This document shows positions 1 to 12,373 of a stretch of 12,373 nucleotides of DNA, piece by piece (the first letter of the stretch is position 1; each line of letters begins with the position of its first letter). The stretch lies in assembly GCA_020061285.1 (NCBI GenBank), contig JAGUYQ010000305.1, positions 1 through 12,373 of the forward strand, read 5' to 3'. The notes under the pieces are model-generated. The model ran no database searches. It was not told where the DNA came from and saw nothing but the letters and a program-made list of their open reading frames with translations. Origin of the DNA: Betaproteobacteria bacterium. GTDB taxonomy: Bacteria > Pseudomonadota > Gammaproteobacteria > Burkholderiales > UBA9220. Position numbers and translations under genes: made by a program.

Positions 1-126
1 AAGGTCGAGCAGCACCGGGGTACCGCCCGCCCGCGCCACCACCTCGGCGTGCTGGCGGCCGAGCAGGCCAGCGGCACCGGTGATGACAATGACGCGGTCT
101 TGCAGAGAAAACAGGGAATCGCTCAT
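1..126 (-). CDS. SDR-family oxidoreductase, N-terminal fragment (cut by window edge)
   Basis: Only the first 42 codons are inside the window. They begin MSDSLFSLQDRVIVITGAAG and show the first beta strand and the glycine-rich NAD(P)-binding turn TGAAGLLG of a short-chain dehydrogenase/reductase, followed by a second strand ending in VLLDL. The Asp after the second strand is typical of NAD(H)-preferring members. The ATG at 124-126 has a GAAGGA ribosome site 7 nt upstream and lies 11 nt after the preceding SDR's stop, so it is the last visible gene of the minus-strand sugar-acid operon. The catalytic YxxxK is off the window. Substrate is unknown; from context it probably oxidises, reduces or epimerises a sugar intermediate. 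Confidence 0.85.
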   Translation of the reverse strand, partial: MSDSLFSLQDRVIVITGAAGLLGRQHAEVVARAGGTPVLLDL

Positions 127-137
127 GGGAATATCCT

Positions 138-911
138 TCAAAACAGGCTAACGGTCTGCCCACCATCCACCACCAGGCAAGTGCCGGTGATGAAGCGGGC
201 GCGTTCGGAACAGAGAAATAGGACAGCGTCGGCCATTTCTTCGGGGGTGCCAAAGCGCTTCATTGGCACCGTCGCCTCGATCAACGCGGCCACACGCTGC
301 GGGTCGGCCTGGATTTTGGCGTCCCAGCTACCGCCGGGGAAGTGGACGTTGCCGGGAGCAAGGCAATTGACTCGCACCGTCGGCGCAAGACGACGGGCCA
401 TTTGCTTGGTCAGGGCCAGGAGGGCGGATTTGGCCACGGAATAGTCAGTGGGGGCCCCGATGTACTCCAGGCCGGCGATGGACGACACGAACAACAGGCT
501 GCCCGCGCTAGCTTCCAACAAGGGCAGGGTGGCACGGGCCACGGCTTCGGCGCTGACGAAATTACTGCGCCAGGCTTCCGCAAAGCGCTCCGCATCCGGC
601 AGGGCGTCCCGGGGACCCCGCCCATCACCCACGTTGGCGACGGCCACGTCCAACCCGCCCCAGGAGGAACCTATTTCTTCAAGGATAGGTGGCCACGCTG
701 CCTCGTCGGCACAGTCGGCGGGCAGGGCCAAAACCCGCTCCCCACCGTACTCCGCCCCCAGACGGTCAGCGGCTTCGGCAAGAGGGCCGGCGGTACGCGC
801 CAGCAGAGCCACCCGCGCGCCTTCCCTCAGAAAACTCTCGGCGATGGCCAAGCCGATGCCCCGGGAGGCACCGGCGACCAGAACCCGTTTATCGGTGAGG
901 CCGAGATCCAT
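138..911 (-). CDS. SDR-family oxidoreductase (3-oxoacyl-ACP reductase-like)
   Basis: A 257-residue classical short-chain dehydrogenase. Visible motifs are the cofactor turn GASRGIG (residues 14-20), the VANVG strand (91-95, equivalent of NNAG), N117 in RSNFVS, the catalytic serine region FVSSIAG (141-147), Y157 and K161 in YSVAK, and the C-terminal ITGTCLVVDGG. All catalytic residues are present, so it should be an active NAD(P)-dependent oxidoreductase. A longer open frame runs upstream to 1091, but the ATG at 909-911 has GAGGAG just before it, starts the family alignment, and lies 10 nt after the upstream gene's stop. Membership in the operon suggests a keto/hydroxy interconversion on a sugar or sugar acid; the substrate cannot be read from sequence. 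Confidence 0.9.
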   Translation of the reverse strand: MDLGLTDKRVLVAGASRGIGLAIAESFLREGARVALLARTAGPLAEAADRLGAEYGGERVLALPADCADEAAWPPILEEIGSSWGGLDVAVANVGDGRGPRDALPDAERFAEAWRSNFVSAEAVARATLPLLEASAGSLLFVSSIAGLEYIGAPTDYSVAKSALLALTKQMARRLAPTVRVNCLAPGNVHFPGGSWDAKIQADPQRVAALIEATVPMKRFGTPEEMADAVLFLCSERARFITGTCLVVDGGQTVSLF

Positions 912-921
912 CAGCTCCTCT

Positions 922-1752
922 TCACAGATAGCGCCGGCGCACCCACTCCAACTGCTGCCGGAACACCGCCACGCCTTCATCGTCCCGATAGGCCTGCATG
1001 ATGAAAGGACCCCGGTAGTCGAAGGGTGAGAGGGCATCGAAAAACCGCTCGAACTGGGTATTACCGCTGCCCAGCACCACCGAGCCGCCACCTAGCACCC
1101 GATCCTTGATGTGGATGTCGGAAATGCGCCCGCCATAGCAGGCCAGTTCCTCCGTGGGATCGAACCCCAGGGCGGCACTGTTGCCGGTATCGTAGTTCAC
1201 CGTCACCCGGGGCGAGTCGAAACGCGCCAGCAGTTCAGCGAATGGCTGCGGCGCCAAATCGGTCTCCAAGGACAGGTTGATACCGGCCTCGTCAGCCTGC
1301 TCCACCAATGGCTGGAGACGTGCCACGAAGCGGTCTTGGGCGGCAGCGTCCCGCATCGAAGACTGGTCCACGCAAGGGATGACGATGTCCGTCAACCCCA
1401 GTTTCTTGCCGTGCGCCAGCAAGCGCCGTAGCACGCCCTGACTGTGAGCGGCGATGGCCTCGTCGGAATGGTGCAACGGCGCTTCCATGAAATAGTCGGC
1501 ACACACCGTGTACACCTTGACGCCGCTCTTGCCGCTCACCGCCAAAATCTCATCGGGGCCGTCAGGACGCAGCAGGGGATTGTCCTCGGCGTCGTTGAAA
1601 TCGAGGATAAACTCGATGCAGTCCAGTCCCAATTCCGCTGCCTTGGAAAATTCGTCCTGCCAATAACCCACCGGGTGGGCCTGGTAGCGCCCCTGGTACT
1701 TGGGCAGCAAGCGGCCTTGCATGACGCCGATGGGGTTTTCTGAATAACTCAT
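922..1752 (-). CDS. Sugar phosphate isomerase/epimerase (xylose isomerase-like TIM barrel)
   Basis: A 276-residue protein of the xylose isomerase-like/AP endonuclease 2 superfamily. It opens with the typical PIGVMQGRL segment, and has ELGLDCIEFILDF (about 40-52), the SLETDL strand with a likely metal-binding Glu, the VNYDTGN strand with an Asp, and the DIHIKDR strand with a His. These are the usual divalent-metal ligands of the barrel. The family interconverts ketoses and aldoses or epimerises keto sugars. The start at 1750-1752 (MSYSENPIG) has AAGGA/AAGAAG upstream and begins at the domain edge; the 14-residue upstream extension is not family-like. It follows the SIS gene after 109 nt, the widest gap in the operon. 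Substrate is unassigned; a role in the sugar-acid precursor pathway is inferred. Confidence 0.85.
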   Translation of the reverse strand: MSYSENPIGVMQGRLLPKYQGRYQAHPVGYWQDEFSKAAELGLDCIEFILDFNDAEDNPLLRPDGPDEILAVSGKSGVKVYTVCADYFMEAPLHHSDEAIAAHSQGVLRRLLAHGKKLGLTDIVIPCVDQSSMRDAAAQDRFVARLQPLVEQADEAGINLSLETDLAPQPFAELLARFDSPRVTVNYDTGNSAALGFDPTEELACYGGRISDIHIKDRVLGGGSVVLGSGNTQFERFFDALSPFDYRGPFIMQAYRDDEGVAVFRQQLEWVRRRYL

Positions 1753-1861
1753 GACTTCTTTATCCTTGCTTAATCGCGGTCGAGGCAGGCCCACGAGGCA
1801 TTACGTAGCTCAAGATTGAAAGAGAAAGAGCAAACCGCACGCTACTCAGTAAAGACGGCAG
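1753..1861 (-). other. Widest intergenic gap in the operon
   Basis: All other junctions in this operon are about 10-25 nt, whereas this gap is 109 nt. No convincing hairpin, palindrome or sigma-70 promoter pair was seen. The gap may be a degraded spacer or hide a weak internal promoter; nothing further is claimed. Confidence 0.3.
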
Positions 1862-2455
1862 TCATACCGCTTCCGACTTGTTGCCCTTAAAGTAGGCGTT
1901 TTCCACCAACCCGCATAGGATGTGGCCGAGCAGGATGTGCCCTTCCTGAACGCGTTCAGTGCGGCGGGACGGCATACACAGGCAGGGACAGAGGGTAGCC
2001 AGCTTCCCACCACCCTCACCGGTGAAGCCCATGGTGCGGATCGACAACTCCCGCGCCACGTCCACCGCCGCCAGGATGTTGGGACTATTGCCGCTGGTGG
2101 TGATAGGAACGAACACGTCGTGAGAGCCCGCCATCGCCCGCAGTTCCCGGGCAAACACCTGATCGTAACCGTAGTCATTGCCGATGGCGCTCATGGAGGA
2201 ACTGTTGGTGCCCAAGGCGATGGAAGGCAAGGGCGCACGATCAAACTGGAGGCGGGAAACAAACTCCGCCGCCAAGTGCTGGGAATCGGCAAAACTGCCG
2301 CCGTTGCCGGCGAAGAAAATCTTCCCCCCTTGGCGCAGGGCGTCCAGGCACCAGCCGGCGAGTTCGGCCAGTTGCCCGTGCAACGCCTCGTCCCCGGCCA
2401 GGGCTTGATGCACGGCCAAGGCGCTATGCAAATCGGTTTGAACTTGCTGTTTCAT
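1862..2455 (-). CDS. Phosphoheptose isomerase-type SIS protein (GmhA-like)
   Basis: A 197-residue single-SIS-domain protein, the usual GmhA length (E. coli about 192). The core has GNGGSFADSQHLAAEF (50-65), TTSGNSPNI (119-127) and ERVQEGHILLGH (167-178). The zinc/catalytic set known for GmhA (His-x3-Glu, then Gln-x7-His) is reproduced as H60, E64, Q170 and H178 with identical spacing. It is therefore likely a working metal-dependent ketose/aldose phosphate isomerase rather than a DiaA-like scaffold. GmhA converts sedoheptulose 7-phosphate to D-glycero-D-manno-heptose 7-phosphate; whether that is the substrate here is open. The start at 2453-2455 (MKQQVQTD) follows AGGAGG and lies 13 nt after the aminotransferase stop; the longer upstream frame is noise. 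Confidence 0.88.
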   Translation of the reverse strand: MKQQVQTDLHSALAVHQALAGDEALHGQLAELAGWCLDALRQGGKIFFAGNGGSFADSQHLAAEFVSRLQFDRAPLPSIALGTNSSSMSAIGNDYGYDQVFARELRAMAGSHDVFVPITTSGNSPNILAAVDVARELSIRTMGFTGEGGGKLATLCPCLCMPSRRTERVQEGHILLGHILCGLVENAYFKGNKSEAV

Positions 2456-2468
2456 CTCCCCTCCTGGA

Positions 2469-3452
2469 TCACTTCTTCTTGAAGCGGTAGGGCGTCGGGG
2501 CATCTGAAGAAACTGCCGTATCCGTCGCATTCCACGCCTTGATCTGCTGGGCGATGTCCACCCCGACGTTGGCAGACCACCGGTCGAGCAGCGCATTGAA
2601 ACCGGCACCCACCTGGCCGTTGCCAATGGGCAGGCCGTTGAGGCGGGTCACCGGCAGCATGCAAAACGGCGTACCGGTCATGAAAGCCTCATCGGCCGTG
2701 TACACGTCGTAGGGTTCGATGTTCTTTTCCACCACCGCCATACCTAGCTGAGGCCCCAGCTCCTCCATCACGTAGGCGCGAGAGATGCCCCGTAGGATAT
2801 TGCGCCCCTCCGGGGAGATGATGGTGTTGTTCTTGATGATGAAGAAGTTGTCGCCGGTGCCCTCGGCGATGAAGCCGTCCGGATCCAACAGCAAAGCCCA
2901 GTTGTCGTCTCCGGCGATGTTGGAGGCTTCGATATTTGCCATCAGATAATGGATGCGGCTACGGTTTTTGATCTTCGGATCCAGCAGGGTACCGGGAATA
3001 GCCCGCTGGGAGGTGATGACGGCGTTGATGCCGCTATCGAACAAGTATCCCATACCGGCCACCGTCCAGCGCAGGGGGAAATCGGCGATGATGACGTTGG
3101 GACCCTTGTGGAGCCCCTCCACCCGCTGATAGATGCCCAGAGTACCGCGAGAAACGTCGATCATCAGGCGATGCTCGTCGTCGTCCCCGAAGAGGTGCTC
3201 GTTGGCCTCGTTGACCTCGATGCAGTGGCGCTCCATTTCGTCGATGGTCATGTCGAGCGGAATCTGCAGAATCTTCAGACCCGCATACAACCGTTCGAGA
3301 TGTTCCCGCAGCTTAAACTGCTTTTTGCCGAAGGAGCGCGTCATCTCGAAGACCATGTCGCCGAACATGAGGGCCGAATCATAGACGGAAATCTTCGCCT
3401 CCGACTCCGGCACCAGTTTCCCGTTCACCCATATCACACGACCGCTGCTCAT
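2469..3452 (-). CDS. Class IV PLP-dependent aminotransferase (BCAT/D-amino acid transaminase fold)
   Basis: A 327-residue fold-type IV transaminase. The N-terminus VIWVNGKLVPESEAKISVYD is typical of IlvE/Dat proteins. The Schiff-base lysine is predicted as K162 in DPKIKNRSRIH, 14 residues before the EA that closes the following helix, as in D-amino acid transaminase. E197 in IAEGTGDNFF is the expected PLP N1 partner and TGTPFCMLPV (259-268) the phosphate-binding region. ATG at 3450-3452 is preferred over an in-frame GTG six nt upstream because GAGAGG sits 6 nt before this ATG and abuts the GTG. It begins 10 nt after the NeuB-like gene's stop. Sugar aminotransferases are usually fold I (DegT), so its job here is unclear: an unusual sugar amination or supply of an amino acid substituent are both possible. 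Confidence 0.88.
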   Translation of the reverse strand: MSSGRVIWVNGKLVPESEAKISVYDSALMFGDMVFEMTRSFGKKQFKLREHLERLYAGLKILQIPLDMTIDEMERHCIEVNEANEHLFGDDDEHRLMIDVSRGTLGIYQRVEGLHKGPNVIIADFPLRWTVAGMGYLFDSGINAVITSQRAIPGTLLDPKIKNRSRIHYLMANIEASNIAGDDNWALLLDPDGFIAEGTGDNFFIIKNNTIISPEGRNILRGISRAYVMEELGPQLGMAVVEKNIEPYDVYTADEAFMTGTPFCMLPVTRLNGLPIGNGQVGAGFNALLDRWSANVGVDIAQQIKAWNATDTAVSSDAPTPYRFKKK

Positions 3453-3462
3453 CGCCACCCTC

Positions 3463-4317
3463 TCAGTTCTTGTATTCGCTTTCGAAGGGAATGTGTGCGC
3501 GCAGCTTCTCTGCGATCGGCGCCTCCTTCGGATTCATTTCCAGGCGGCCATCGCCCATCGCTTTCTCGATCTTGCGCACGGCACCGACCAGCATGCGGAA
3601 GCCGGAAGGCTCCACCGACGCCGCCTGATCGGAACCGTACATGGCGCGGTCGAGCGTAATGTGGCGCTCAAGGGAGGTAATACCCAGCGCCGCCGCCGCG
3701 TAGGAGACAGCCAGGCCAACCTCGTGGCCGCTGTAACCGACATTGCAACCGAAGCGGTCGCGCAGGGCTTTTATCCGGTTCAGGTTGGCATCCTCATCTT
3801 CCATGGGATAGGTAGAAATGGTATGCATCAGCTCAAAGGGGCAGCCGACCTCTCGGAAAATCGCGATAGCACGCTCCACGTCCTCGATCTTGCTCATGCC
3901 GGTAGAAATGAAGGTGTGCTTCTTTTCTTCCGCCACCAGCCGCAGCAGCGGTTCATGCACCAGCATGGCGGAAGCAAGCTTGTTATATTTCAGATCAAAT
4001 TGGCACAGAAACTTCTGGCTTTCTACATCCCATGCCGACGCGAACCATTCGATTCCCTTTTCCCGGCAATAACCATCAATTTCCCGAAATTGCTCAGCAG
4101 TAAACTCCAGCCCCGCCTTCTGGTCACGCTGCGTTTTGCCCCATGGGCTTTCCCGAGGAGAATTCAAAAACTCCTGGGTATAAACCAGATCGAGCGTTCG
4201 CTTCTGGAATTTAACGGCATCCGCCCCCGCATCCTTGGCCACGTCGATGAGCTGCTTGGCGATATCAAGACTGCCATTGTGGTTAATACCGATTTCAGCG
4301 ATGACAAAAATGGCCAT
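3463..4317 (-). CDS. NeuB-family sugar-acid synthase (PEP condensation), no SAF domain
   Basis: A 284-residue NeuB TIM barrel, which condenses phosphoenolpyruvate with an aldose or aldose phosphate to make a 2-keto-3-deoxy sugar acid. Motifs seen: IAEIGINHNG (6-15), DAVKFQKR (33-40), STGMS (138-142), GYSGHE (194-199) and SLERHITLD (215-223). H198 and H219 are 21 apart, matching the two metal-binding histidines of the meningococcal enzyme. The family is normally about 340-350 residues with a C-terminal antifreeze-like SAF domain; here the protein ends right after the barrel at IPFESEYKN. ATG at 4315-4317 has AGAGGA 6 nt upstream; an in-frame TTG just before it is too close to that site. The product could be a nonulosonate or its 9-phosphate. 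Confidence 0.92.
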   Translation of the reverse strand: MAIFVIAEIGINHNGSLDIAKQLIDVAKDAGADAVKFQKRTLDLVYTQEFLNSPRESPWGKTQRDQKAGLEFTAEQFREIDGYCREKGIEWFASAWDVESQKFLCQFDLKYNKLASAMLVHEPLLRLVAEEKKHTFISTGMSKIEDVERAIAIFREVGCPFELMHTISTYPMEDEDANLNRIKALRDRFGCNVGYSGHEVGLAVSYAAAALGITSLERHITLDRAMYGSDQAASVEPSGFRMLVGAVRKIEKAMGDGRLEMNPKEAPIAEKLRAHIPFESEYKN

Positions 4318-4341
4318 CTTCAATCCTCTTTAATTTAAGGG

Positions 4342-5544
4342 TTAAATGTTCAGACTGAGCCGGGGACCCAGCAGCACTTCGGAAATCTCTTTCAGCACAC
4401 CTTCCCCACCACGGGCGCGAGTAATGTATTTTGCCATCGCCAATACCGCTGGGTGCGCATCCGCCGGCGCCACGGGAAATCCGACTTGGCGCATTGCATC
4501 GAGATCATTGACGTCATTGCCGACATAAAGCACTTGATCCAGCGCGACCCCCCTGACCTCGCAACACGCCATCAGATCCCGCCGCTTATCGCCACTTCCC
4601 TGCAATACATCCAACCCCAGCTTCTTTGCTCGTGCAGCAACGACCGGATTGGTTTCGGTGCTTAAGATAACCTGCTGAAATCCGGCGTGGCGTAGCTGCC
4701 CCACACCCCAACCATCCGCGCGGTTGGCGAGGACGGCCTCGCTGCCATCTTGCAGCACCAGTACGCGATTGTCCGTCATCACCCCATCGAAATCATACAC
4801 AATCAAAGCCGGCTGGAACCCCGCAATGTCACATTCCTGCTGCCAACTCGCAAGCAGATACTTGCAGAAGTAGAACTCACACAGCTCAATGTTCTCGATG
4901 GTATCGATCTCGAAGGATTTCCAGAAGTCCATGGAGTAGCGGGCAATCTTGCCGCCTAGGCGATTGCCGGCTTGCCGCAAAAGGGATGGCTTGAATACGT
5001 AGATTGAGCCGTTTTCGAGAAAAAGGGGGGTGCGGTCCTGGCGACGGCCGCGATTGAATGGATCGAAGGTTTTGCCCCTCAACACACCATCTTCTTCGTG
5101 CCACGCACAAAAATCATCGAGCATGGCATCAGAAAAAAGCGAGTCTGCGGCTTGCGACACGAATGCCTCAACGGCACCATCAATATCCGACGGTTCTCGC
5201 AGTGGAGAAGTCGCCTGCAGGAACACGATACGCTCCGGTTCGGCGCCACGCTCCGCAGCTATTACATCCAATGCGTGCAACAAAGCAGATTCAGATGTCG
5301 CCGTGTCCGTCGAAAATGCATCAGGACGTTTGATGGTTTTTGCCCCATAGCGTGCCGCGACATCAAGGATGGCGTTGCTATCGGAGGACACATAAACGTC
5401 ATCCACCGTCTTGGCCGCCTTCGCCTGAAGAACCGACCAGGCCAGCAAAGGCTTACCGGCGAAATTTATCAGGTTTTTATGGGGAATTCCCTTAGACCCG
5501 CCGCGTGCCAGAATAATGGCGATCGACCCAGTAGAGGAAAGCAT
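4342..5544 (-). CDS. CMP-sugar-acid cytidylyltransferase fused to KdsC-like HAD phosphatase
   Basis: A 400-residue two-domain protein. Residues 1-235 are a NeuA/CMP-N-acylneuraminate synthetase domain, with the CTP-binding ARGGSKGIPHKN (13-24), VSSDS (52-56) and LQATSPLR (109-116). Residues 246-395 are a KdsC/KDN-9-phosphatase-like HAD domain with motif I DFDGV (D251, D253), motif II ILSTE (S295), K320 in GSGDKR, and motif IV GNDVND (D344, D347), all apparently intact. The architecture resembles vertebrate CMAS. It suggests that the sugar acid is made as a phosphate, dephosphorylated and then CMP-activated by the same polypeptide. This is the first gene of the operon and ends 24 nt before the NeuB-like gene. 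No clear ribosome site precedes the ATG at 5542-5544, but the synthetase motif region begins within 10 residues and supports this start. Confidence 0.92.
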   Translation of the reverse strand: MLSSTGSIAIILARGGSKGIPHKNLINFAGKPLLAWSVLQAKAAKTVDDVYVSSDSNAILDVAARYGAKTIKRPDAFSTDTATSESALLHALDVIAAERGAEPERIVFLQATSPLREPSDIDGAVEAFVSQAADSLFSDAMLDDFCAWHEEDGVLRGKTFDPFNRGRRQDRTPLFLENGSIYVFKPSLLRQAGNRLGGKIARYSMDFWKSFEIDTIENIELCEFYFCKYLLASWQQECDIAGFQPALIVYDFDGVMTDNRVLVLQDGSEAVLANRADGWGVGQLRHAGFQQVILSTETNPVVAARAKKLGLDVLQGSGDKRRDLMACCEVRGVALDQVLYVGNDVNDLDAMRQVGFPVAPADAHPAVLAMAKYITRARGGEGVLKEISEVLLGPRLSLNI

Positions 5545-5600
5545 TTTTTATGTTTTACAGGTAATTGGCCGTATTGCCGGCAAGAAAAACTGATGCAGCT

Positions 5601-5629
5601 ATGTTACAGTAGTGCCCCATATAATTCAA
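5601..5629 (-). promoter_or_regulatory. Candidate sigma-70 promoter of the sugar-acid operon
   Basis: Read on the minus strand, TTGAAT (5629-5624) and TAACAT (5606-5601) are separated by exactly 17 nt. Each box matches 4 of 6 consensus bases. Transcription would begin near 5593, leaving a leader of about 50 nt before the cytidylyltransferase ATG at 5544. This is a pattern match only. Confidence 0.4.
5620..5625 (+). promoter_or_regulatory. Candidate -10 box for the divergent ligase/GT9 transcript
   Basis: A perfect TATAAT on the plus strand, with no recognisable -35 at 16-18 nt upstream, so an activator or weak promoter would be needed. It overlaps the -35 of the minus-strand promoter. A start near 5632 would make the ATG at 5593 unusable and favour starts at 5659, 5671 or 5713 for the membrane protein. 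Confidence 0.35.
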
Positions 5630-5670
5630 AATCAGTTTCTGCTTCCCAGCTCCCTCAAATGCATCACCCG

Positions 5671-6927
5671 ATGAATGGAAAACTTTGTTCCCGGATAGGC
5701 TGGACCCCCCCGATGTCCGCCAATGGACAGATCGCCGGCTGTGCCGCATTGGCGTTAATGGCGGTCTATTTATGGGCACTCCCCACCGCCCACACCATCG
5801 CACTTCGTCAAGTCGCCTTTTTTTCTCTAATTCTGCTGACTTTATGGAGCACTTGGCGCTACGGGCTGCGTCTGCACCTACCCCTTGCCGCGCCGTGGTT
5901 GATATTCGGCGCCGTTGCACTGGCATCCCTTACTTACGCCGTTGACCTAACGTTTTCGCTCGGGGAAATAAAAAAAGAAATTGGCTATGGAATGCTGGTC
6001 CTGGTTCTGAGCGCATCATGGGTAAGAAACATCGCTTCGCTGGAACGGCTGATCATAATTCTTGCCATCGGCAATATTTTTCTGATTGGTTCTGTTCTGT
6101 TCAAGATCACCATCCTTGACCCATTTTGGCACCACCCCGCTTCCCAGATCAGCTCGCTCCTATATAACGGCCCAGGGAAAAGCCTGTACAACGGCGTTGG
6201 CAACTTCAGTACTTATTTGGTTACCATCATGCCCTTAATAGCGGCCTATGCATTCTCTCTACCAAAGAGCCGACGGGTGGCCCGGCTCAGTCTGTTCGTT
6301 CTCCTTGCTTTTAATGTTGTGGCATTATTTTTGACCGGCAACCGCATGGGATTAGTCATCTGCCTACTGGAAATACTTTTCGTCACTGGCTTTCTGATTG
6401 CACGAGGAATCATCTCTTGGCGAACACTAATTGTCGCTGTAATGGCGCTGGCCACCATTGGCATCCTGACCTGGGGACAAATGCACGTCCGCACGCCGGT
6501 TGACGACATACGCTGGAAAATGTGGTCCTGGATCATCACCGACATTCGCACCAATCCGCTGGCCGGCGGCGGATTTGGCCGTACTGTGTTATGCCTATAC
6601 GATCCGAAATTTTGCCAAGTCTTTCCTTTTGAGCATGCGCACAACATGCTTCTCGACAAAGGCGTGCAGATGGGAATTCCTGGTATCGCAGCCTTTCTGT
6701 TCCTGCTCGGCGCGACCTTTCATAGCCTATGGCCCAGCCGCAAAACCTATCCCAACCCACAATGGGGGTACTTACTGGGAGCCGCGACCATGTTTGTAGG
6801 GGTTTTTCTCAAGAGCATGACGGACGATTTCTTCGTCGACCATAATGCTCTTCTCTTCTGGGCATTGACGGGAGGAGTGCTCGGCGCCCTGGCCGAACAA
6901 CGAGTAGATACAAAGGCGCAAAACTGA
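5671..6927 (+). CDS. O-antigen ligase / polymerase-type membrane protein (WaaL/Wzy_C family)
   Basis: A polytopic inner-membrane protein of about 418 residues with roughly ten hydrophobic segments. Two signatures of the O-antigen ligase superfamily are visible: LTGNRMGL (221-228, conserved Arg after a membrane helix) and FEHAHNMLLDKGVQMGIPG (320-338, catalytic-type HxHN in a periplasmic loop). Members transfer undecaprenol-linked glycan to lipid A-core or polymerise repeat units; sequence alone does not separate these. The open frame runs back to 5098, but that part is antisense to the cytidylyltransferase and hydrophilic. No start has a good ribosome site; ATG 5671 places a basic N-terminus before the first helix, and ATG 5713 (404 residues) is the main alternative. 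Its TGA overlaps the ATG of the GT9 gene by one base, indicating coupling. Confidence 0.82.
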   Translation: MNGKLCSRIGWTPPMSANGQIAGCAALALMAVYLWALPTAHTIALRQVAFFSLILLTLWSTWRYGLRLHLPLAAPWLIFGAVALASLTYAVDLTFSLGEIKKEIGYGMLVLVLSASWVRNIASLERLIIILAIGNIFLIGSVLFKITILDPFWHHPASQISSLLYNGPGKSLYNGVGNFSTYLVTIMPLIAAYAFSLPKSRRVARLSLFVLLAFNVVALFLTGNRMGLVICLLEILFVTGFLIARGIISWRTLIVAVMALATIGILTWGQMHVRTPVDDIRWKMWSWIITDIRTNPLAGGGFGRTVLCLYDPKFCQVFPFEHAHNMLLDKGVQMGIPGIAAFLFLLGATFHSLWPSRKTYPNPQWGYLLGAATMFVGVFLKSMTDDFFVDHNALLFWALTGGVLGALAEQRVDTKAQN

Positions 6928-8006
6928 TGAAAACGGAGGCGCCTAAGTTTCTGATCATACGTCGCGACAACATCGGCGACCTAGTCTGTACCACCCCCCT
7001 AATCCACGCTCTGAGGCAGCACTACCCGCACAGTCAAATCTATGCTTTCGTCAACAGCTACAATGCCGGGGTACTCGAGAACAACCCCGATGTGGATGGA
7101 ATCTATTCTTACACCAAGATAAAACACCGCACGGGCAATCAGTCAATTATCAAAGTCCTTTGGCAGCGCGTCGTTACACTAACCCAACTCCGCTTAAGGC
7201 AATTCGACTACGCCATACTCGCCGGGGCGCCCTATCTACCGAGAGCCCTTCAATTCGCTCGTCTAGCCGCCCCTCGCCATATCATCGGGTTTACTGAACC
7301 AGGAAAACCAGGCATTCAGCATATCGACCTGCCGGTGCCCTATGGAGAACAGCAACCTCTGCACGAAAGTGAAGATATTTTTCGACTTCTTAGCCCCCTC
7401 GGCATACAAGGGAAACCCGGGCCACTCAAAGTCGTGCCTGACGAGAAGATGGCTCTGGAGGCGAGAAAAGCCCTAGCTGACAAACATATTGATTCGAATC
7501 AGATGCTGATTGGGATTCATATCAGCGCCCGAAAACCCAGCCAACGGTGGCCCGTAAGAAATTTTATTGAACTGATGCGCAGGCTACATCAGCAATACCA
7601 AGCCGCCTTCCTGCTACTTTGGTCCCCCGGTGACAGCAGCAATCCTTTACATCCGGGCGATGACGACAAGGCAAAAGAAATCCAACAGGCACTGAGTGAC
7701 CTGCCTTTACTTGCTTACCCTACGCACGAGCTCAAAGAACTTATCGGCGCCCTGTCCCTGTGCTCAATGGCCATCTGCAGTGATGGTGGCGCCATGCACT
7801 TGGCCGCGGGCATGGGGAAACCGATTCTATGTTTTTTCGGACAATCCACGCGCAGCCGCTGGTACCCATGGAGGGTGCCGTATATGCTGCTGCAACCAGA
7901 AAGCCAGAACGCCTCGGATATCAACGTGGAAGAAGCGCTCGCCGCATTTGGCCGTTTACGCGACCAATCCCGACACGAGGCCAGGCTAGATGTAGTGTTT
8001 CAATAG
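6927..8006 (+). CDS. Glycosyltransferase family 9 protein (heptosyltransferase-like)
   Basis: A 359-residue GT9 protein of the WaaC/WaaF/WaaQ type, which transfer heptose from ADP-heptose to LPS core at the cytoplasmic membrane face. The N-terminal FLIIRRDNIGDLVCTTPLI (8-26) has the GD motif with D18 at the position of the catalytic Asp. The C-terminal domain has IGIHISAR (195-202) and SDGGAMHLAAGMGKPILCFFG (285-305), the nucleotide-sugar binding region. Donor and acceptor are not determined; many GT9 proteins near O-antigen ligases have uncertain sugars. It is coupled to the ligase (TGATG overlap). The stop at 8004-8006 is followed within a few bases by IS-derived sequence, so any further gene of this transcript has been cut off or displaced. 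Confidence 0.88.
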   Translation: MKTEAPKFLIIRRDNIGDLVCTTPLIHALRQHYPHSQIYAFVNSYNAGVLENNPDVDGIYSYTKIKHRTGNQSIIKVLWQRVVTLTQLRLRQFDYAILAGAPYLPRALQFARLAAPRHIIGFTEPGKPGIQHIDLPVPYGEQQPLHESEDIFRLLSPLGIQGKPGPLKVVPDEKMALEARKALADKHIDSNQMLIGIHISARKPSQRWPVRNFIELMRRLHQQYQAAFLLLWSPGDSSNPLHPGDDDKAKEIQQALSDLPLLAYPTHELKELIGALSLCSMAICSDGGAMHLAAGMGKPILCFFGQSTRSRWYPWRVPYMLLQPESQNASDINVEEALAAFGRLRDQSRHEARLDVVFQ

Positions 8007-8008
8007 GT

Positions 8009-8105
8009 TGTTCACCCGGAAATTTCTGGGAAACTGGAGTTCTCGACGCTTCAGCACCCTCAGGAGGACAACCGGATGAACAGCCATAAGAATGCCAGAA
8101 CCACG
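8009..8105 (+). mobile_element. 5' remnant of an IS481-family element
   Basis: The segment starts TGTTCACCCGGAAATTTCTG shortly after the GT9 stop, which resembles an IS end, and is followed by a strong AGGAGG (8062-8067) and an ATG at 8076 opening a typical IS481 transposase N-terminus. The remainder is missing: the complete neighbouring element begins at 8106, and no continuation is seen beyond its other end at 9322. The outer boundary (8009) is estimated from where the terminal repeat should begin. Confidence 0.55.
8076..8105 (+). pseudogene. Truncated IS481-family transposase (first 10 codons)
   Basis: The ATG lies 8 nt after AGGAGG and reads MNSHKNARTT, which matches the characteristic MNxHKNARxT opening of many IS481-family transposases (recognised from memory, not from a search). 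The next codon lies in the terminal repeat of the intact element; read-through gives seven foreign residues and a TGA at 8127-8129. The rest of the gene is absent from the window, so this is a dead remnant. Confidence 0.6.
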
Positions 8106-8130
8106 TGTGCAGTTACCGTAATCACCTGAC
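8106..8130 (+). repeat. Left terminal inverted repeat of the IS
   Basis: The 25 bases match the reverse complement of 9298-9322 at 24 positions; the single difference is C at 8123 against T in the partner. This end lies downstream of the transposase stop. Confidence 0.92.
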
Positions 8131-8156
8131 ACCTGCCGTTTCTGGCGGGTACTAGT

Positions 8157-9206
8157 TTAAGCGGCCTGAGGGGTATTTTCCATGGTGGCCGCTTTTGCCT
8201 TGGGCTTGCCCCGCTTGAACTGCGCCAGGGGGGGTCTGCCCTCCATCATCCGGCCCTGGTGGGGCCGCTTGGTGTTGTACTGGACGAGGTAAGCGTCCAG
8301 GTCCTTCTGCATCTCCTCCACGCCCTCGTACCACTTCGTCCGGCCCATGATGCGGAAGTGCTCATCCAGCAAGGTTCGATGCAGCCGCTCGATGAAGCCG
8401 TTGCTTTGGGGACGGCGGACCTTGGTGGTCCGGTGAGCGATGCCTTCCAATTGTAGGAACAGCTCATAGGGGTGGCTATCCGCCCGGCCGCAGTATTCTC
8501 GCCCGTTGTCCGAGAGGATGGTCTGCACCGCGATGCCCTGGGCCTCGAAGAACGGCAGCACGTCCTCATTCAGGAGGTGCACCGCCGTCGCCGGCAGCTT
8601 GCTGGTGTACAGCCGCCCGAAGGCGTACCGGCTGTAGCAGTCCAGGGCTGTTTGCAGGTAGACCTTCCCCACGCCCTTGAGGCTGCCGACGAAGAAGGTG
8701 TCTACGGCCACCAGTTCCCACGGGGCATGCACTTCGATGTGCCGTTCCCGGAACTCGGGGCTGAAGCGTTCAAGCAGTCGGACCTGGTCGTCGGTGAGTT
8801 CCAGGGTCTTCTCCCGCACGGCGGCTTCCATGCGCAGCAGCCGTTCGTGTTTGGGGAGCAGGTTGTGCCGGCCCCAGACGCCCCGCACCCCGTTGGAGCT
8901 GACCCGGACGCCCTGAAGGGCCAGTTCCTGAGCCACCCGCAGGCAGCCTTGGGTGGGCTGGGCCAGACTGTGGGCCAGGACGGCAGCTTCGATCTCGTCC
9001 GATACCCGGTTGGGATGGGGGCCGCGGGCGCCGGGGAGCTTGTCCAATAGGCCGGCAGCCCCGCAGGTCTGATACTGGCGCCGTATCTCGTAGAACTGCT
9101 GGCGGGAGTAGCCCGTCACCCGGCAGGCCCGGCTGACATTGCTCAATTCCGAGGCCAATTCCAACAAGGACAGCTTCCGCCGTGCTACTTTCTCTTCTGT
9201 GGTCAT
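8157..9206 (-). CDS. IS481-family DDE transposase
   Basis: A 349-residue transposase with an N-terminal helix-turn-helix (ASELSNVSRACRVTGYSRQQF, about 17-37) and an rve integrase core. The DDE triad is visible as Asp in ELVAVDTFFVG, Asp in ILSDNGREYCG and Glu in SNGFIERLHRTL; the core ends with the usual YNTKRPHQGRMMEGRPP. ATG at 9204-9206 has GGAG 8 nt upstream; the in-frame extension to 9278 runs through noncoding IS sequence and is not family-like. No frameshift or premature stop is present, so it should be functional. It cuts and joins the terminal repeats at 8106-8130 and 9298-9322. Confidence 0.93.
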   Translation of the reverse strand: MTTEEKVARRKLSLLELASELSNVSRACRVTGYSRQQFYEIRRQYQTCGAAGLLDKLPGARGPHPNRVSDEIEAAVLAHSLAQPTQGCLRVAQELALQGVRVSSNGVRGVWGRHNLLPKHERLLRMEAAVREKTLELTDDQVRLLERFSPEFRERHIEVHAPWELVAVDTFFVGSLKGVGKVYLQTALDCYSRYAFGRLYTSKLPATAVHLLNEDVLPFFEAQGIAVQTILSDNGREYCGRADSHPYELFLQLEGIAHRTTKVRRPQSNGFIERLHRTLLDEHFRIMGRTKWYEGVEEMQKDLDAYLVQYNTKRPHQGRMMEGRPPLAQFKRGKPKAKAATMENTPQAA

Positions 9207-9297
9207 GTCGTTTTCTCCAAGGTTGCTTCCAGGTAGGGGTACCCGGAATTTAACCTCCAGAAACGACATCGACCACACCCCTTAGTCGTGGCCTACT

Positions 9298-9322
9298 GTC
9301 AGGTAATTACGGTAACTGCACA
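9298..9322 (-). repeat. Right terminal inverted repeat of the IS
   Basis: Partner of 8106-8130 with one mismatch. It lies upstream of the transposase start, so the transposase promoter is expected between here and 9206. Confidence 0.92.
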
Positions 9323-9388
9323 GTCAGGCGAACTTATCCAAGATTACAGAGGGCTAGGACCCAAACTTAGGCATTTTTCACATAGCTG

Positions 9389-10282
9389 TCAATCTTGATC
9401 AAAGAGTATGTCACCCTCGTGTTGACCTAACAGGTTTTCGAAGTCGAATAGCGATTTATCCATTAGATGCGAGGGAACTACGTTGGTTAGTGCAGTGAAC
9501 ATACTCTTCAGCCTTCGTGGGTCTTCTTTTTCCCACTTTTGCAGCAGTTCACGCATAACCTGACGTTGCAGATTTGGCTGCGACCCACACAAATTGCATG
9601 GAATAATCGGAAAGGACATTGCTGCCGCGTATTTTTTGATGTCCTCTTCTCTGCAATAGGCCAGCGGCCTGATTACGACGTTAGTACCATCGTCGGAACG
9701 CAGCTTCGGCGGCATGGCTTTTAACTTTCCACCGAAAAACAAATTCAATAGCAGTGTTTGGAGAATATCATCCCGGTGATGCCCAAGGGCGATTTTCGTA
9801 GCGCCTATTTCCTTTGCTGTGCGATACAGAATCCCTCGTCGCAGGCGGGAACATAGAGAACATGTCGTTTTCCCCGTGGCTATCTTCTCTTTTACGATGC
9901 TGTAGGTATCTTGTTCGACAATCTTGTATTCAATTCCAATTTTTTCCAGGTATTCAGGCAATACATGCTCAGGAAATCCCGGTTGTTTCTGGTCTAGGTT
10001 AACTGCAATTACCTCGAAACGAATCGGAGCAACACTTTGCAGGTACAACAAGGTATCGAGCATGGTGTAACTATCTGCTCCGCCGGAAAGGCAGGCCATG
10101 ACCCGATCGCCGCCCTCAATCATGTTGAAGTCGATAATCGCCTTACCAGCTAGTCGCCGGATCTGTTTCTGCAGTCTCTCTACACTGCGAGAACGTGCGG
10201 GTTCTGAAATCCTTCCCTGTACCCTATCAAGGTGAAGATTAATTGGAAAAGAGTCTACCGGGAGGTTGGTACGGGCAGTCAT
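9389..10282 (-). CDS. ttcA: tRNA 2-thiocytidine biosynthesis protein TtcA
   Basis: A 297-residue PP-loop ATPase that thiolates C32 of certain tRNAs using a [4Fe-4S] cluster. It matches TtcA along its length: [18 protein letters not shown] (51-68), [19 protein letters not shown] (95-113), [18 protein letters not shown] (139-156), [10 protein letters not shown] (167-176) and [17 protein letters not shown] (227-243). The cluster cysteines C141, C144 and C229 are present. The PP-loop reads SGGADS (66-71) where E. coli TtcA has SGGKDS. The ATG at 10280-10282 has AGGA 7 nt upstream. Codon use is clearly more AT-rich than in the genes at either end of the window, suggesting transfer. It lies 66 nt from the IS and is divergent from a second TtcA-like gene. 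Confidence 0.93.
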
Positions 10283-10367
10283 TCTGGATTCCTAAATACA
10301 TTCTCGCAGGTGTTCAGCAGTCAAAACGAACTCCTCACAGACATACGTCTTCAATCTGATGCGCTCG

Positions 10368-10381
10368 AATTGCATGCAATT
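10368..10381. promoter_or_regulatory. 14-bp perfect palindrome upstream of ttcA (possible operator)
   Basis: AATTGCATGCAATT is its own reverse complement. It lies about 90 nt upstream of the ttcA start and overlaps a TAAAAT on the minus strand (10384-10379) that could be a -10 box, although no good -35 accompanies it. A regulator site is a guess from symmetry and position. Confidence 0.3.
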
Positions 10382-10510
10382 TTATCCTGTGTGATTTCCC
10401 GCGTCTGCCTCTTCTTCTCGCCGAACGCTTCCAGTTATAACTTTGCATTAGAATTAAATCCGTGCCATGGACATTCAGGCCCGTTTTTTCCTTGAAACCC
10501 GCCAAATCTC

Positions 10511-11239
10511 ATGGACATCGTTTCCCGAGGTAAGCGACCGCGCCCACAAAGGAGTGCAGCCGATGTCATCGGTGCGCCAACTAACCGGTGCGGCGGGAAG
10601 GATTCCCTGTCACTGCTTCACGTTCTGCTGCATCTCAAGCAGAAGGCCCCCATCCGCTTCGAACTGGCCGCCTGCACCGTGGACCCCCAGTCGCCGGATT
10701 TCGACCCCTCCCCGCTTAAAGCGTATTTGGCGGAACTGGGGGTGCCCTATTTCTACGAGAGCCAGCCCATCGTCGAGCAGGCGGAGAAGAGCATGGTGGG
10801 GGATTCCTTCTGCGCCTTCTGTTCGCGCATGAGGCGCGGCATCCTCTACCGGGCGGCACGGGAGCACGGCTACAACGTCCTGGCCCTGGCCCAGCATCTG
10901 GACGACCTGGCCGAAACCTTCCTCATGTCCGCTTTCTTCGGCGGCAAGCTGCGCACCATGGCCGCCCATTACACCATCGATGCCGGCGACCTGCGGGTGA
11001 TCCGCCCCTTCGCCTACGTGCGGGAGCGGCAGACCCTGGCTTTCGCCCGCAATGCCGAACTGCCCGTCATCTTCGAGAATTGCCCGGCCTGCTTCAGCAA
11101 GCCGATGCAACGCTACCAGTTGAAGCAACTGCTGGCAGGGGTCGAGAAGGACCATTCCAAGGTATTTTCCAGCCTGCGCACGGCCATGAAGCCGCTGATG
11201 GGCGGGAAAGGTGAACCCCAGCGCGGCGGCGAGGACTAA
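10511..11239 (+). CDS. TtcA-like PP-loop ATPase, 5' end disrupted (probable pseudogene)
   Basis: The frame gives 242 residues. From CGGKDSLSLLHVLLHLKQ onward it is a clear TtcA-family paralogue: AACTVDPQSPDFDPSPLKAY, SFCAFCSRMRRGILYRAA, ALAQHLDDLAETFLMSAFFG and ENCPACFSKPM, with both Cys pairs present. The first 26 residues do not resemble the family's segment before the PP-loop (normally an AIxDFxMIxxGDRV-type stretch), and the PP-loop Ser is Cys. No other frame restores the missing part. A better initiation signal lies at AAAGGAG (10548-10554) with ATG 10563, but in a different frame. An internal deletion with frameshift near 10590 explains this best. It may be a pseudogene, or a protein starting at 10511 without a ribosome site. 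Confidence 0.6.
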   Translation: MDIVSRGKRPRPQRSAADVIGAPTNRCGGKDSLSLLHVLLHLKQKAPIRFELAACTVDPQSPDFDPSPLKAYLAELGVPYFYESQPIVEQAEKSMVGDSFCAFCSRMRRGILYRAAREHGYNVLALAQHLDDLAETFLMSAFFGGKLRTMAAHYTIDAGDLRVIRPFAYVRERQTLAFARNAELPVIFENCPACFSKPMQRYQLKQLLAGVEKDHSKVFSSLRTAMKPLMGGKGEPQRGGED

Positions 11240-11247
11240 GCCGCGTA

Positions 11248-11262
11248 CCCCCCGGAAGGGGG
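11248..11262. terminator. Possible hairpin between convergent genes
   Basis: A CCCCC/GGGGG stem closing a short CGGAA-type loop sits in the 32-nt gap between the converging TtcA-like and M48 genes. Neither strand has a good T-run after it, so efficient intrinsic termination is doubtful. Confidence 0.3.
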
Positions 11263-11271
11263 CAGCCGAGT

Positions 11272-12129
11272 TTATTTGCCGTTGGGTTTGTGCTTGAGGA
11301 AACGGGCAGCCAGGGTGGGCTGGCTGCCGTAGGCGTCCAGCTTGTTCCCGGCGGCTTGGTCGATGGCCTTGATCCGGTCGGGGGGCGCGGGATGGGTCTC
11401 GAACAGCAGTTCGGCTCCCGGGTCCTTGGGGTTGAGCTTTTCCAGGTCGTGAATCACTTCCGGCAGGGCGAAAGGATCGTAGCCGGCCCGTGCGGCGATG
11501 ACGATGCCCATGCGGTCGGCTTCGTATTCGTCGTCCTTGTCCAAGCCGCGGGCGTAGAGCTCCTTGGTGCCCTGGACCAGGTTGGCCAGCACCTGGGATT
11601 TCGTATCTCCCTCGCCGTGGGCTTCCACCGCCATGGTGGCCACCTCGGCGAAAGCGCCGTAGGAGGCGTTCTTCTGGATCGCTTTGAGATGGTGCCTCTG
11701 CAGGACGTGGGCGATTTCGTGGGCGAGGACGCCGGCCAGTTCCGCTTCGTTGTCGAGGCGCTTGAGCAGACCCTTGGTGATGAAAATGTACCCTCCCGGC
11801 GCGGCGAAGGCGTTGACCGCCTCGCTGTCCAGTACGCCGAAATGCCACACCAGGTCCGGGCGTTCGGTTTGCAGGGCGAGCCAGCGGCCCACGTCGTTGA
11901 CGTACTTTTCCAGGGCCGGGTTGTTCACCAAGGGGGCGCCGCCCAGCAGGGTGGCGGCCATTTGCTCTCCGATGGCCACTTCCTCCTTTTCCGGCACTTC
12001 CCGGTTGGCTTCCTGGACGTTCTTGATGACGCTGCCGATGCGGTTGAGATTGATGTTGCCCAGGTCGAAGGCATGGCCGGCCACGGGCATCGCCAGGGCG
12101 GCGAGCAGGAGGGCTAGACGCTTGTTCAT
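11272..12129 (-). CDS. Secreted M48-family zinc metalloprotease
   Basis: A 285-residue protein with a Sec signal peptide (MNKRLALLLAALAMPVAGHA, cleavage expected after residue 20; no lipobox Cys) and an M48 peptidase domain. The zinc site is HEIAH (H137, E138, H141) with the third ligand E203 in DDEYEADRMG. PGGYIFITKGLL (111-122) and ETHPAPPDRI (244-253) are typical of the BepA/LoiP-like periplasmic branch, which helps with outer-membrane protein quality control; there is no TPR region, so it is a short member. ATG at 12127-12129 has GGGGAGG 6 nt upstream and overlaps the stop of the upstream gene (ATGA), indicating coupled translation. The exact substrate is unknown. Confidence 0.92.
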   Translation of the reverse strand: MNKRLALLLAALAMPVAGHAFDLGNINLNRIGSVIKNVQEANREVPEKEEVAIGEQMAATLLGGAPLVNNPALEKYVNDVGRWLALQTERPDLVWHFGVLDSEAVNAFAAPGGYIFITKGLLKRLDNEAELAGVLAHEIAHVLQRHHLKAIQKNASYGAFAEVATMAVEAHGEGDTKSQVLANLVQGTKELYARGLDKDDEYEADRMGIVIAARAGYDPFALPEVIHDLEKLNPKDPGAELLFETHPAPPDRIKAIDQAAGNKLDAYGSQPTLAARFLKHKPNGK

Positions 12130-12373
12130 TGAATGCCTCCCCAGCCGGAGTTTTGGTTGCCGCCATTGGCGGCGGAGGCCGGCTCTTTCAGGTAATCCAC
12201 CTGCCGGGCCTTGAGTCCGCCAGCGGCGGCGAAGGTCCGCGCCTCCTTGGCGCCGACCGTGTATTGCTTGAGCTTCTTCAATTCCGCCGGGTTGGGCTGG
12301 GCGTTTTGCAGTTCTTCCTTGGTCAGGCCGCGGACCCCGGTGGCGACGGTGGTGCCGCTGCTGCCGGTGCGGG
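12126..12373 (-). CDS. Unrecognised protein, C-terminal fragment (cut by window edge)
   Basis: The last 81 codons of a minus-strand frame enter from the right edge. It is rich in Gly/Ser/Thr at first (TGSSGTTVATGVRGLTKEEL), then charged and probably helical (NPAELKKLKQYTVGAKEART), and ends NSGWGGIQ. The stop TGA overlaps the M48 ATG by 4 nt, so the two are translated together. The coding-type bias and the tight overlap support a real gene. No domain is recognised; since its partner is a periplasmic protease, an envelope protein is a reasonable guess only. Confidence 0.7.
   Translation of the reverse strand, partial: RTGSSGTTVATGVRGLTKEELQNAQPNPAELKKLKQYTVGAKEARTFAAAGGLKARQVDYLKEPASAANGGNQNSGWGGIQ

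Follow-up and report, generated by a model that had tools for sequence, protein, structure and literature searches.

A phosphorylated route to ulosonic acids is known from the synthesis of N-acetylneuraminic acid (Neu5Ac) in humans and of Kdn in B. thetaiotaomicron and the alga Prymnesium (available text of PMC6200933). In Leptospira interrogans, LA_1611-LA_1615 are listed in the accessible parts of two papers as encoding a nucleotidyltransferase, a hypothetical protein, NeuB, an aminotransferase, and a cytidine monophosphate (CMP)-synthetase (PMC3438082, PMC4758666), and the aminotransferase is entered in the first of these as step '4, 13, or ?'. The NeuB of this cluster has an endonuclease-like C-terminal domain that its authors took to be a phosphatase (PMC3438082, same parts). 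Here we describe an operon at one end of contig JAGUYQ010000305.1 from a Betaproteobacteria bacterium (positions 1 to 12,373; we call this whole stretch of 12,373 nucleotides the window). We predict, with a probability of about 0.5, that the product of the operon is a 2-keto-3-deoxy sugar acid that is amino-substituted, activated with CMP, and destined for the cell surface. Predictions of bacterial sialic-acid-like sugars usually rely on a small number of gene sets, those for Neu5Ac, legionaminic acid (Leg), and pseudaminic acid (Pse), and this operon is open to being misread as one of them; it could also be misread as belonging to branched-chain amino acid metabolism.

The operon and its enzymes

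Seven genes make up the operon, six of them complete and the seventh truncated at the window edge; each lies on the minus strand and starts with ATG. In order of transcription they are:

4342-5544, minus strand: NeuA-HAD, a CMP-ulosonate cytidylyltransferase fused to a HAD domain like KdsC and Kdn-9-P phosphatase; 400 aa (PF02348 and PF08282)
3463-4317, minus strand: NeuB-type synthase without a C-terminal SAF domain; 284 aa (PF03102 alone)
2469-3452, minus strand: class IV (pyridoxal phosphate, PLP, fold IV) aminotransferase that we call AT4 (Pfam), related to and distinct from branched-chain aminotransferases (BCATs)
1862-2455, minus strand: SIS, a SIS-domain ketose-/aldose-phosphate isomerase like phosphoheptose isomerase (PF13580)
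922-1752, minus strand: TIM, a xylose-isomerase-type TIM barrel like sugar 3-epimerases (Pfam)
138-911, minus strand: SDR5, a short-chain dehydrogenase/reductase (SDR; PF13561/PF00106)
1-126, minus strand: SDR3, a second SDR of which the first 126 bases lie inside the window edge (NCBIfam SDR models)

The gaps between these genes are 24, 10, 13, 109, 10, and 11 bp. A preliminary description of this DNA had reported seven tightly spaced genes. The seven-gene set on the minus strand is real, Pfam agrees with that description for each of the six complete genes, and the spacing is mostly tight (10-24 bp), the exception being the 109 bp between SIS and TIM. The assignment of SDR3 comes from NCBIfam and from locus L001 of another genome; the 46-aa piece had no Pfam match and is 84% identical over 44 aa to the L001 SDR, which is full-length and matches PF13561. 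An identification of SDR3 as PtmA was not supported, the PtmA model scoring 106.6 bits in L029 against a cutoff of 350. The operon may continue beyond the window edge.

NeuA-HAD scored under the NCBIfam cutoffs for both KdsC (99.5 of 208 bits) and KDN-9-PPhBT (87.2 of 180 bits). Its matches in the PDB were the HAD proteins 3mmz and 4nav, 1qwj, which is a CMP-Neu5Ac synthetase, and 3ewi. The last is entered as an N-acylneuraminate cytidylyltransferase and aligned with the HAD half; we take it to be the C-terminal domain of mouse CMAS. A KdsC/Kdn-9-P-phosphatase-type HAD, a trait of the phosphorylated Kdn/Neu5Ac route, is present in the window and fused to NeuA, and a HAD-NeuA fusion also occurs in L113. 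HAD was within 14-93 bp of a NeuB profile match in 15 of 27 HAD matches, three of which (L002, L003, L035) also placed it 31-46 bp from a NeuA match. In genome G226 (L107), SIS, HAD, NeuB, and NeuA form a contiguous run.

The window NeuB matched the catalytic domain PF03102 at positions 23-257 (234.2 bits) and was under the equivalog cutoffs for NeuB_NnaB (247.5 of 399.65 bits) and PseI (188.5 of 340.25 bits); its closest PDB entry was 6ncs (141.9 bits). A C-terminal SAF (antifreeze-like) domain is typical of characterised NeuB, PseI, and SpsE enzymes. Pfam found no SAF domain in the 284-aa window protein and did find one in the long NeuB of L016, which is built of NeuB, SAF, and a xylose-isomerase-like domain (PF01261). 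Such long NeuB proteins (approximately 630 aa) were found near an HddA-like kinase, often with an HddC-like nucleotidyltransferase, in L005-L012, L015, L016, L038, L040, L055, and L133-L135. The HddA-like kinase of L040, the one tested, carries a CBS domain.

SIS was under the GmhA equivalog cutoffs (TIGR00441, 155.2 of 209.45 bits; PRK13936, 167.2 of 276). Assuming that the positions of the catalytic and metal residues of GmhA can be applied to our alignment, the D, H, E, Q, and last H are conserved in all 29 rows. Within the TTDTS motif (as in 2xbl), the window has N in place of D; we rejected this change as the mark of a new substrate because N occurs in just 16 of the 29 rows and is not diagnostic.

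AT4 was below the cutoffs of all 18 NCBIfam models that it matched, amino acid aminotransferases included, and we rejected its identification by equivalog as a branched-chain or D-amino acid aminotransferase (IlvE_I, 173.1 of 245.55 bits; D_amino_aminoT, 90.2 of 277.45 bits). The protein has PLP fold IV and the conserved catalytic lysine. Just after this lysine are Arg166, found in 96 of 97 rows, and Arg168, found in all 97, at positions that are Leu and Tyr in the three archaeal BCATs compared. Judged from the alignment, these arginines might suit a charged substrate. Arg41 and Arg97 were rejected as AT4-specific charged residues since the BCATs compared have both, and only Arg166 and Arg168 differ.

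The window TIM barrel scored 67.0 of 200 bits with the model for L-ribulose-5-P/ketose 3-epimerases. We take Glu-Asp-His-Glu to be the four metal ligands of those enzymes, and the window protein lacks the full set; 67 of 71 TIM members, that of the window among them, have Gln in place of the last Glu. The four members without this Gln accompany a Gfo/Idh dehydrogenase.

Conservation and exchange of the genes

From 130 relatives of AT4 found by scanning genome contigs, we kept the best 80 loci (54-91% identity) and scored neighbour families lying no more than 6.5 kb from AT4 with profiles built from these loci. By record titles and in our own grouping, the 80 loci span about twenty phyla, bacterial and archaeal; most come from metagenome-assembled genomes (MAGs), so these labels are no better than the binning. 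Some open reading frames (ORFs) in GC-rich loci resembled antisense artefacts in an early clustering of neighbours. NeuB was found in 72 of the 80 loci, a CMP-transferase homologue (NeuA or SpsF type) in 73, and both in 68. TIM was present in 49, SDR5 in 44, SDR3 in 51, and all three in 37, with lower counts for SIS (30), HAD (25), and an LIC12162-type transferase (16). At stricter bit scores there were 70 loci with NeuB, 72 with a CMP-transferase, 66 with both, 45 with TIM, and 34 with TIM, SDR5, and SDR3. Among the eight loci without NeuB, four (L028, L050, L068, L071) have AT4 near a contig end. All seven genes occur in the window order in L001-L003. In L001 a methyltransferase gene is inserted between SIS and TIM, where the window has its 109-bp gap (1753-1861); the gap and this gene share a single 19-bp match, which is at chance level. 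Because the same set is found again in other genomes, it is no chance grouping, and the preliminary expectation that the genes would be conserved together elsewhere is borne out.

The carriers of AT4 include, by record titles, aquatic and groundwater MAGs, Prochlorococcus, Pelagibacteraceae, and Nitrosopumilus. Source names add Leptospira, including L. biflexa, with AT4 at 79-82% identity in species other than L. interrogans. Many of the listed source records name AT4 homologues as branched-chain amino acid enzymes. Matches in plasmid and GenBank phage records were just 31-36% identical and were annotated as aminotransferase or left unannotated; the top match in the GenBank phage collection was 32% identical.

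In an independent sample of 398 genomes from one phylum, AT4 (E<=1e-90) was found in three genomes, NeuB (E<=1e-60) in 18, and TIM (E<=1e-25) in 12. NeuB and a CMP-transferase homologue adjoin AT4 in all three of its genomes. In a second sample of 369 genomes, from the class of G001, TIM was found in G001 alone.

The seven genes do not travel as the single block that the preliminary description had envisaged and behave as exchangeable modules. In the 12 TIM genomes, the slot beside TIM or in the same operon is filled by AT4 in three (G001, G044, G160), by an SDR that we call SDR-X in five (G226, G116, G042, G166, G342), and in three (G120, G180, G104) by a class III aminotransferase accompanied by a VOC protein and a methyltransferase. 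In G226, for example, the SIS-HAD-NeuB-NeuA run is followed by a 170-aa ORF, SDR-X, TIM, SDR5, and SDR3, with no AT4. SDR-X (five loci) or the class III enzyme with the VOC protein (three loci) sits between the CMP-transferase and TIM, which is the place of AT4 in many other loci. In the AT4 loci with TIM that we fetched, SDR-X never reached 400 bits, nor did the class III enzyme reach 200 bits. On a tree of 58 TIM barrels, 48 of them labelled AT4 (the window included; L139 duplicates L020), well supported branches force two changes for SDR-X and two for the class III enzyme, with six for all labels. The sister clusters in which a class III aminotransferase and a VOC/glyoxalase-fold protein replace AT4 are L108, L110, and L136.

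AT4 has other partners as well, namely a radical SAM protein (seven loci), PhyH (five), and an iron-containing alcohol dehydrogenase (Fe-ADH; three), and TIM reached at least 300 bits in none of these 15 loci. The profiles for the three partners were built from the same loci, that for Fe-ADH from a single member, and the hypergeometric value of 4.9e-7 is descriptive, as it ignores relatedness and the families were picked after looking.

Eighteen contigs of uncultured viruses in IMG/VR (L140-L157) carry AT4 at 48-73% identity; L142/L143, L148/L157, and L149/L150 are near-duplicate pairs. A CMP-transferase homologue is present in 17 of the 18 (weak in L154, 94 bits) and NeuB in 14, split over two ORFs in L152 and as a piece in L156. 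Eleven contigs, three of them near-duplicates of others, keep NeuA, AT4, TIM, and SDR3 together with SDR3 right after AT4, although TIM scores there are merely 176-190 bits, under those of cellular loci. We scanned one to three ORFs from each of six contigs against PHROGs, which placed terminase, portal, and scaffold genes beside AT4 in L141 and gave terminase, portal, and DnaB helicase in L147, an exonuclease in L151, and RtcB in L155; the single ORF scanned from L156 and the L149 fusion ORF had no match. This last ORF (L149:3796-5433) encodes 545 aa with CTP_transf_3 and Aminotran_4 domains, a fusion of CMP-transferase and AT4. The near-identical contig has an ORF of the same length (L150:1220-2857), domains having been checked in L149. 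MptE-like proteins (PF01973), presumably the family of Maf flagellin glycosyltransferases, are encoded upstream of the CMP-transferase in L145, L148, L149, L151, and L153, and a match in L142 was barely under the cutoff.

Proposed pathway and alternative explanations

We inferred the core route from protein families, gene order, and gene fusions, and we propose a decoration module to go with it. In the core route, SIS would convert a ketose phosphate to an aldose phosphate, the SAF-less NeuB would condense this with phosphoenolpyruvate, the HAD domain would remove the end phosphate, and the NeuA domain would charge the sugar acid with CMP. For decoration, one SDR would produce a ketone by oxidising a hydroxyl, the TIM barrel would epimerise next to this ketone, and AT4 would transaminate the exposed ketone to an amine; the proposal leaves the carbon unspecified and allows this step before or after NeuB. 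In sister clusters, the class III aminotransferase would leave another amine and SDR-X a hydroxyl. The TIM barrel with the SDRs, radical SAM, PhyH, and Fe-ADH would then be alternative makers of the carbonyl, and AT4, the class III aminotransferase, and SDR-X alternative finishing steps on it. In favour of this proposal we count the conservation of AT4 together with NeuB and a CMP-transferase, the fusion or adjacency of HAD with NeuA and NeuB, the exchange of AT4 for SDR-X or the class III enzyme, the lack of TIM at 300 bits or more beside the three other partners, the phage gene sets, the fusion of AT4 to a CMP-transferase, and Arg166 and Arg168 of AT4. The kinship of SIS with GmhA would allow a C10 product, and hexose phosphates a C9 product. 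A bolder version holds that the product is a ten-carbon amino-ulosonic acid: the GmhA-like isomerase would supply heptose 7-phosphate, NeuB would extend it by three carbons, the HAD domain would take off the phosphate, and AT4 would place an amine on the ketone exposed by TIM and the SDRs. In this version the product belongs to a modular family of CMP-sugars made by bacteria, archaea, and phages, in which the swap of a single enzyme decides between amine and hydroxyl at one position, and phages glycosylate virions or host surfaces with it; we consider this very unlikely to hold as a whole. If a new amino-ulosonic acid is made, a class of surface sugar that is common has gone unnoticed, the exchange of aminotransferase for reductase would allow direct genetic control over whether an amine or a hydroxyl is formed, and the Leptospira aminotransferase marked '?' in 2012 (accessible part of PMC3438082) would gain a testable role.

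Several observations weigh against the pathway proposed for an amino-substituted sugar acid. Unusually for a sugar amine, no gene of the operon was recognised as an N-acyltransferase. The closest solved relatives of AT4 are branched-chain and not sugar aminotransferases, and its invariant Arg41 and Arg97 are common to the BCATs compared. The role of the TIM barrel as an epimerase is unsure because Gln replaces the Glu of its epimerase relatives, and there is no clear task for the second SDR. The modular pattern also has its irregularities: G128 has neither AT4, SDR-X, nor the class III enzyme in the slot and carries Gfo/Idh and a second TIM beyond NeuA, AT4 is not directly before TIM in G001, NeuB lies approximately 15 kb from TIM in G104, and SDR5 was found in none of the 18 phage loci. 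Twenty of the 80 AT4 loci lack TIM (at 300 bits or more), radical SAM, PhyH, and Fe-ADH alike; some of these are short contigs or carry weaker SDR/TIM matches.

Alternatively, AT4 may leave the sugar backbone alone and produce a small amine or an amino acid, which would be joined to a plain ulosonic acid afterwards. Its sequence and fold are closest to BCATs and D-amino acid aminotransferases, and its identity across loci varies less than that of NeuB (54-91% versus 30-92%), as if its substrate were constant, although the loci were chosen by AT4. Against this, AT4 falls under 18 NCBIfam cutoffs, the residues conserved just after its catalytic lysine set it apart, an SDR or a class III aminotransferase takes its slot in other clusters, it is fused to a CMP-transferase in a phage contig, and no amide ligase appeared among the neighbour families identified, an identification that covered part of the neighbours. 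We regard a separate amine as unlikely. The operon might also encode two unrelated surface-sugar pathways lying side by side, one of NeuB, NeuA, HAD, and SIS and the other of AT4, TIM, and the two SDRs. The halves are indeed separable, since AT4 occurs in just three of the 13 sample genomes whose NeuB is at least 51% identical to that of the window, and it also occurs without TIM and SDRs. However, a CMP-transferase and NeuB accompany AT4 in most of its loci, nine of the 12 TIM genomes have the short NeuB and the other three a long NeuB in the same cluster (with NeuB at a distance in G104), phages carry both halves together, and the AT4-CMP-transferase fusion bridges them. This is the least probable explanation considered here.

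The product might also be a plain sialic acid, either Kdn or Neu5Ac, that comes from the phosphorylated route and owes its C5 amine to AT4, which would act on a hexose phosphate or on Kdn. L. interrogans, with a similar gene order, is reported to make Neu5Ac, for which the authors proposed an animal-like phosphorylated route (PMC3438082, in the parts available), and pairs of Kdn-9-P synthase and phosphatase are known (PMC6200933, likewise). But the legionaminic set of L. interrogans is complete as well (PMC3438082, same parts), so that its Neu5Ac is not tied to its AT4-like aminotransferase, and the NeuB of its cluster carries an additional C-terminal domain. Neither a TIM barrel nor two SDRs would seem to be needed for a plain sialic acid, and no acetyltransferase was recognised in the operon. 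We find this explanation distinctly doubtful.

Two genes lie divergent from the operon:

5713-6927, plus strand: Wzy_C/O-antigen ligase-like protein (PF04932), with the start picked by eye
6927-8006, plus strand: glycosyltransferase of family 9, heptosyltransferase-like (PF01075; heptsyl_trn_III 89.4 bits, cutoff 170.2)

Because these two genes adjoin the operon divergently, we place it in the context of surface polysaccharide. Over window positions 1-7500, the SDR/TIM half has a G+C content of about 0.65, against 0.54 for NeuA and 0.51-0.53 for the divergent genes, and this fall may reflect a mosaic origin. A transposase gene (rve integrase core and helix-turn-helix) lies at 8157-9278 on the minus strand, between the glycosyltransferase and TtcA. 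TtcA is encoded at 9389-10282 on the minus strand (468.5 bits, cutoff 272), and a second TtcA-like ORF at 10511-11239 on the plus strand was recognised by eye alone.

Comparison with known systems

The phosphorylated sialic acid route shares with the window operon a NeuB-type synthase, which in the window is predicted to act on a sugar phosphate as it does in that route, a phosphatase, and a CMP-synthetase (available text of PMC6200933), and animal CMAS shares the fusion of a HAD-like domain to a CMP-synthetase (3ewi). The synthase of the phosphorylated route takes Man-6-P or ManNAc-6-P as its substrate. The window operon differs in its SAF-less NeuB, its GmhA-like isomerase, and the additional aminotransferase, TIM barrel, and two SDRs. 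The preliminary description had proposed a precursor built from a sugar phosphate, followed by condensation, dephosphorylation, and activation. The isomerase, NeuB, phosphatase, and CMP-transferase fit this sequence, although a phosphorylated route of this kind was already known (PMC6200933, same text). Its further suggestion that nucleotide-sugar modification plays no part fits the genes of the operon and is less secure for the wider family, in which nucleotide sugars may take part because the relatives with a long NeuB carry HddA/HddC-like kinase and nucleotidyltransferase genes.

Legionaminic and pseudaminic acid pathways have NeuB-type condensation and CMP activation in common with the window operon. 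They also use a nucleotide-sugar dehydratase, an aminotransferase of another family, an acetyltransferase, and a hydrolase or hydrolysing epimerase. As the preliminary description had stated for the first three, no nucleotide-sugar dehydratase, DegT aminotransferase, acetyltransferase, or hydrolase/hydrolysing epimerase was recognised among the six complete genes of the operon, which runs off the window. KdnB and KdnA make 8-amino-Kdo in Shewanella, KdnA being a DegT-type enzyme. Their logic, in which a hydroxyl of a sugar acid is oxidised and then transaminated, resembles ours, and Fe-ADH is found beside AT4 in L061, L067, and L079. The Fe-ADH of L079 was not supported as KdnB; the KdnB entry 5k8c ranked just 11th (48.9 bits) and was no closer than other Fe-ADHs. 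The dehydrogenases of the YcjS-YcjR-YcjQ system of E. coli are of families other than the window SDRs. This system interconverts glucosides and gulosides, acting on free glucosides, and the TIM family of the window has Gln where the epimerases compared have Glu. As in the window, a keto-sugar epimerase is encoded beside two sugar dehydrogenases in the ycj operon (accessible text of PMC11543891).

Among the best matches listed in the open-licence literature, no paper other than those on Leptospira dealt with AT4 in a CMP-ulosonate operon. The terms sialic, nonulosonic, and aminotransferase are absent from the main texts of PMC10958091 and PMC13111663. In the parts available, Shewanella sfmA-E pairs NeuB with other enzymes (PMC3765264), and a study of an enrichment reports Kdn and Pse/Leg and names no such gene (PMC8053191). 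The nearest published case that we found is the L. interrogans cluster, from an article whose Table 1 also gives the legionaminic gene list (PMC3438082, in part). Its NeuB has an extra C-terminal domain that the window NeuB is without, a like architecture being found in L016, and from its gene order and the presence of AT4 in other Leptospira its aminotransferase is probably AT4. The cluster looks like a close cousin of the window operon. The preliminary description, which considered that the product might be undescribed, missed this relative and was right that the exact product is not predictable. We file the window operon as a variant of known CMP-ulosonate pathways.

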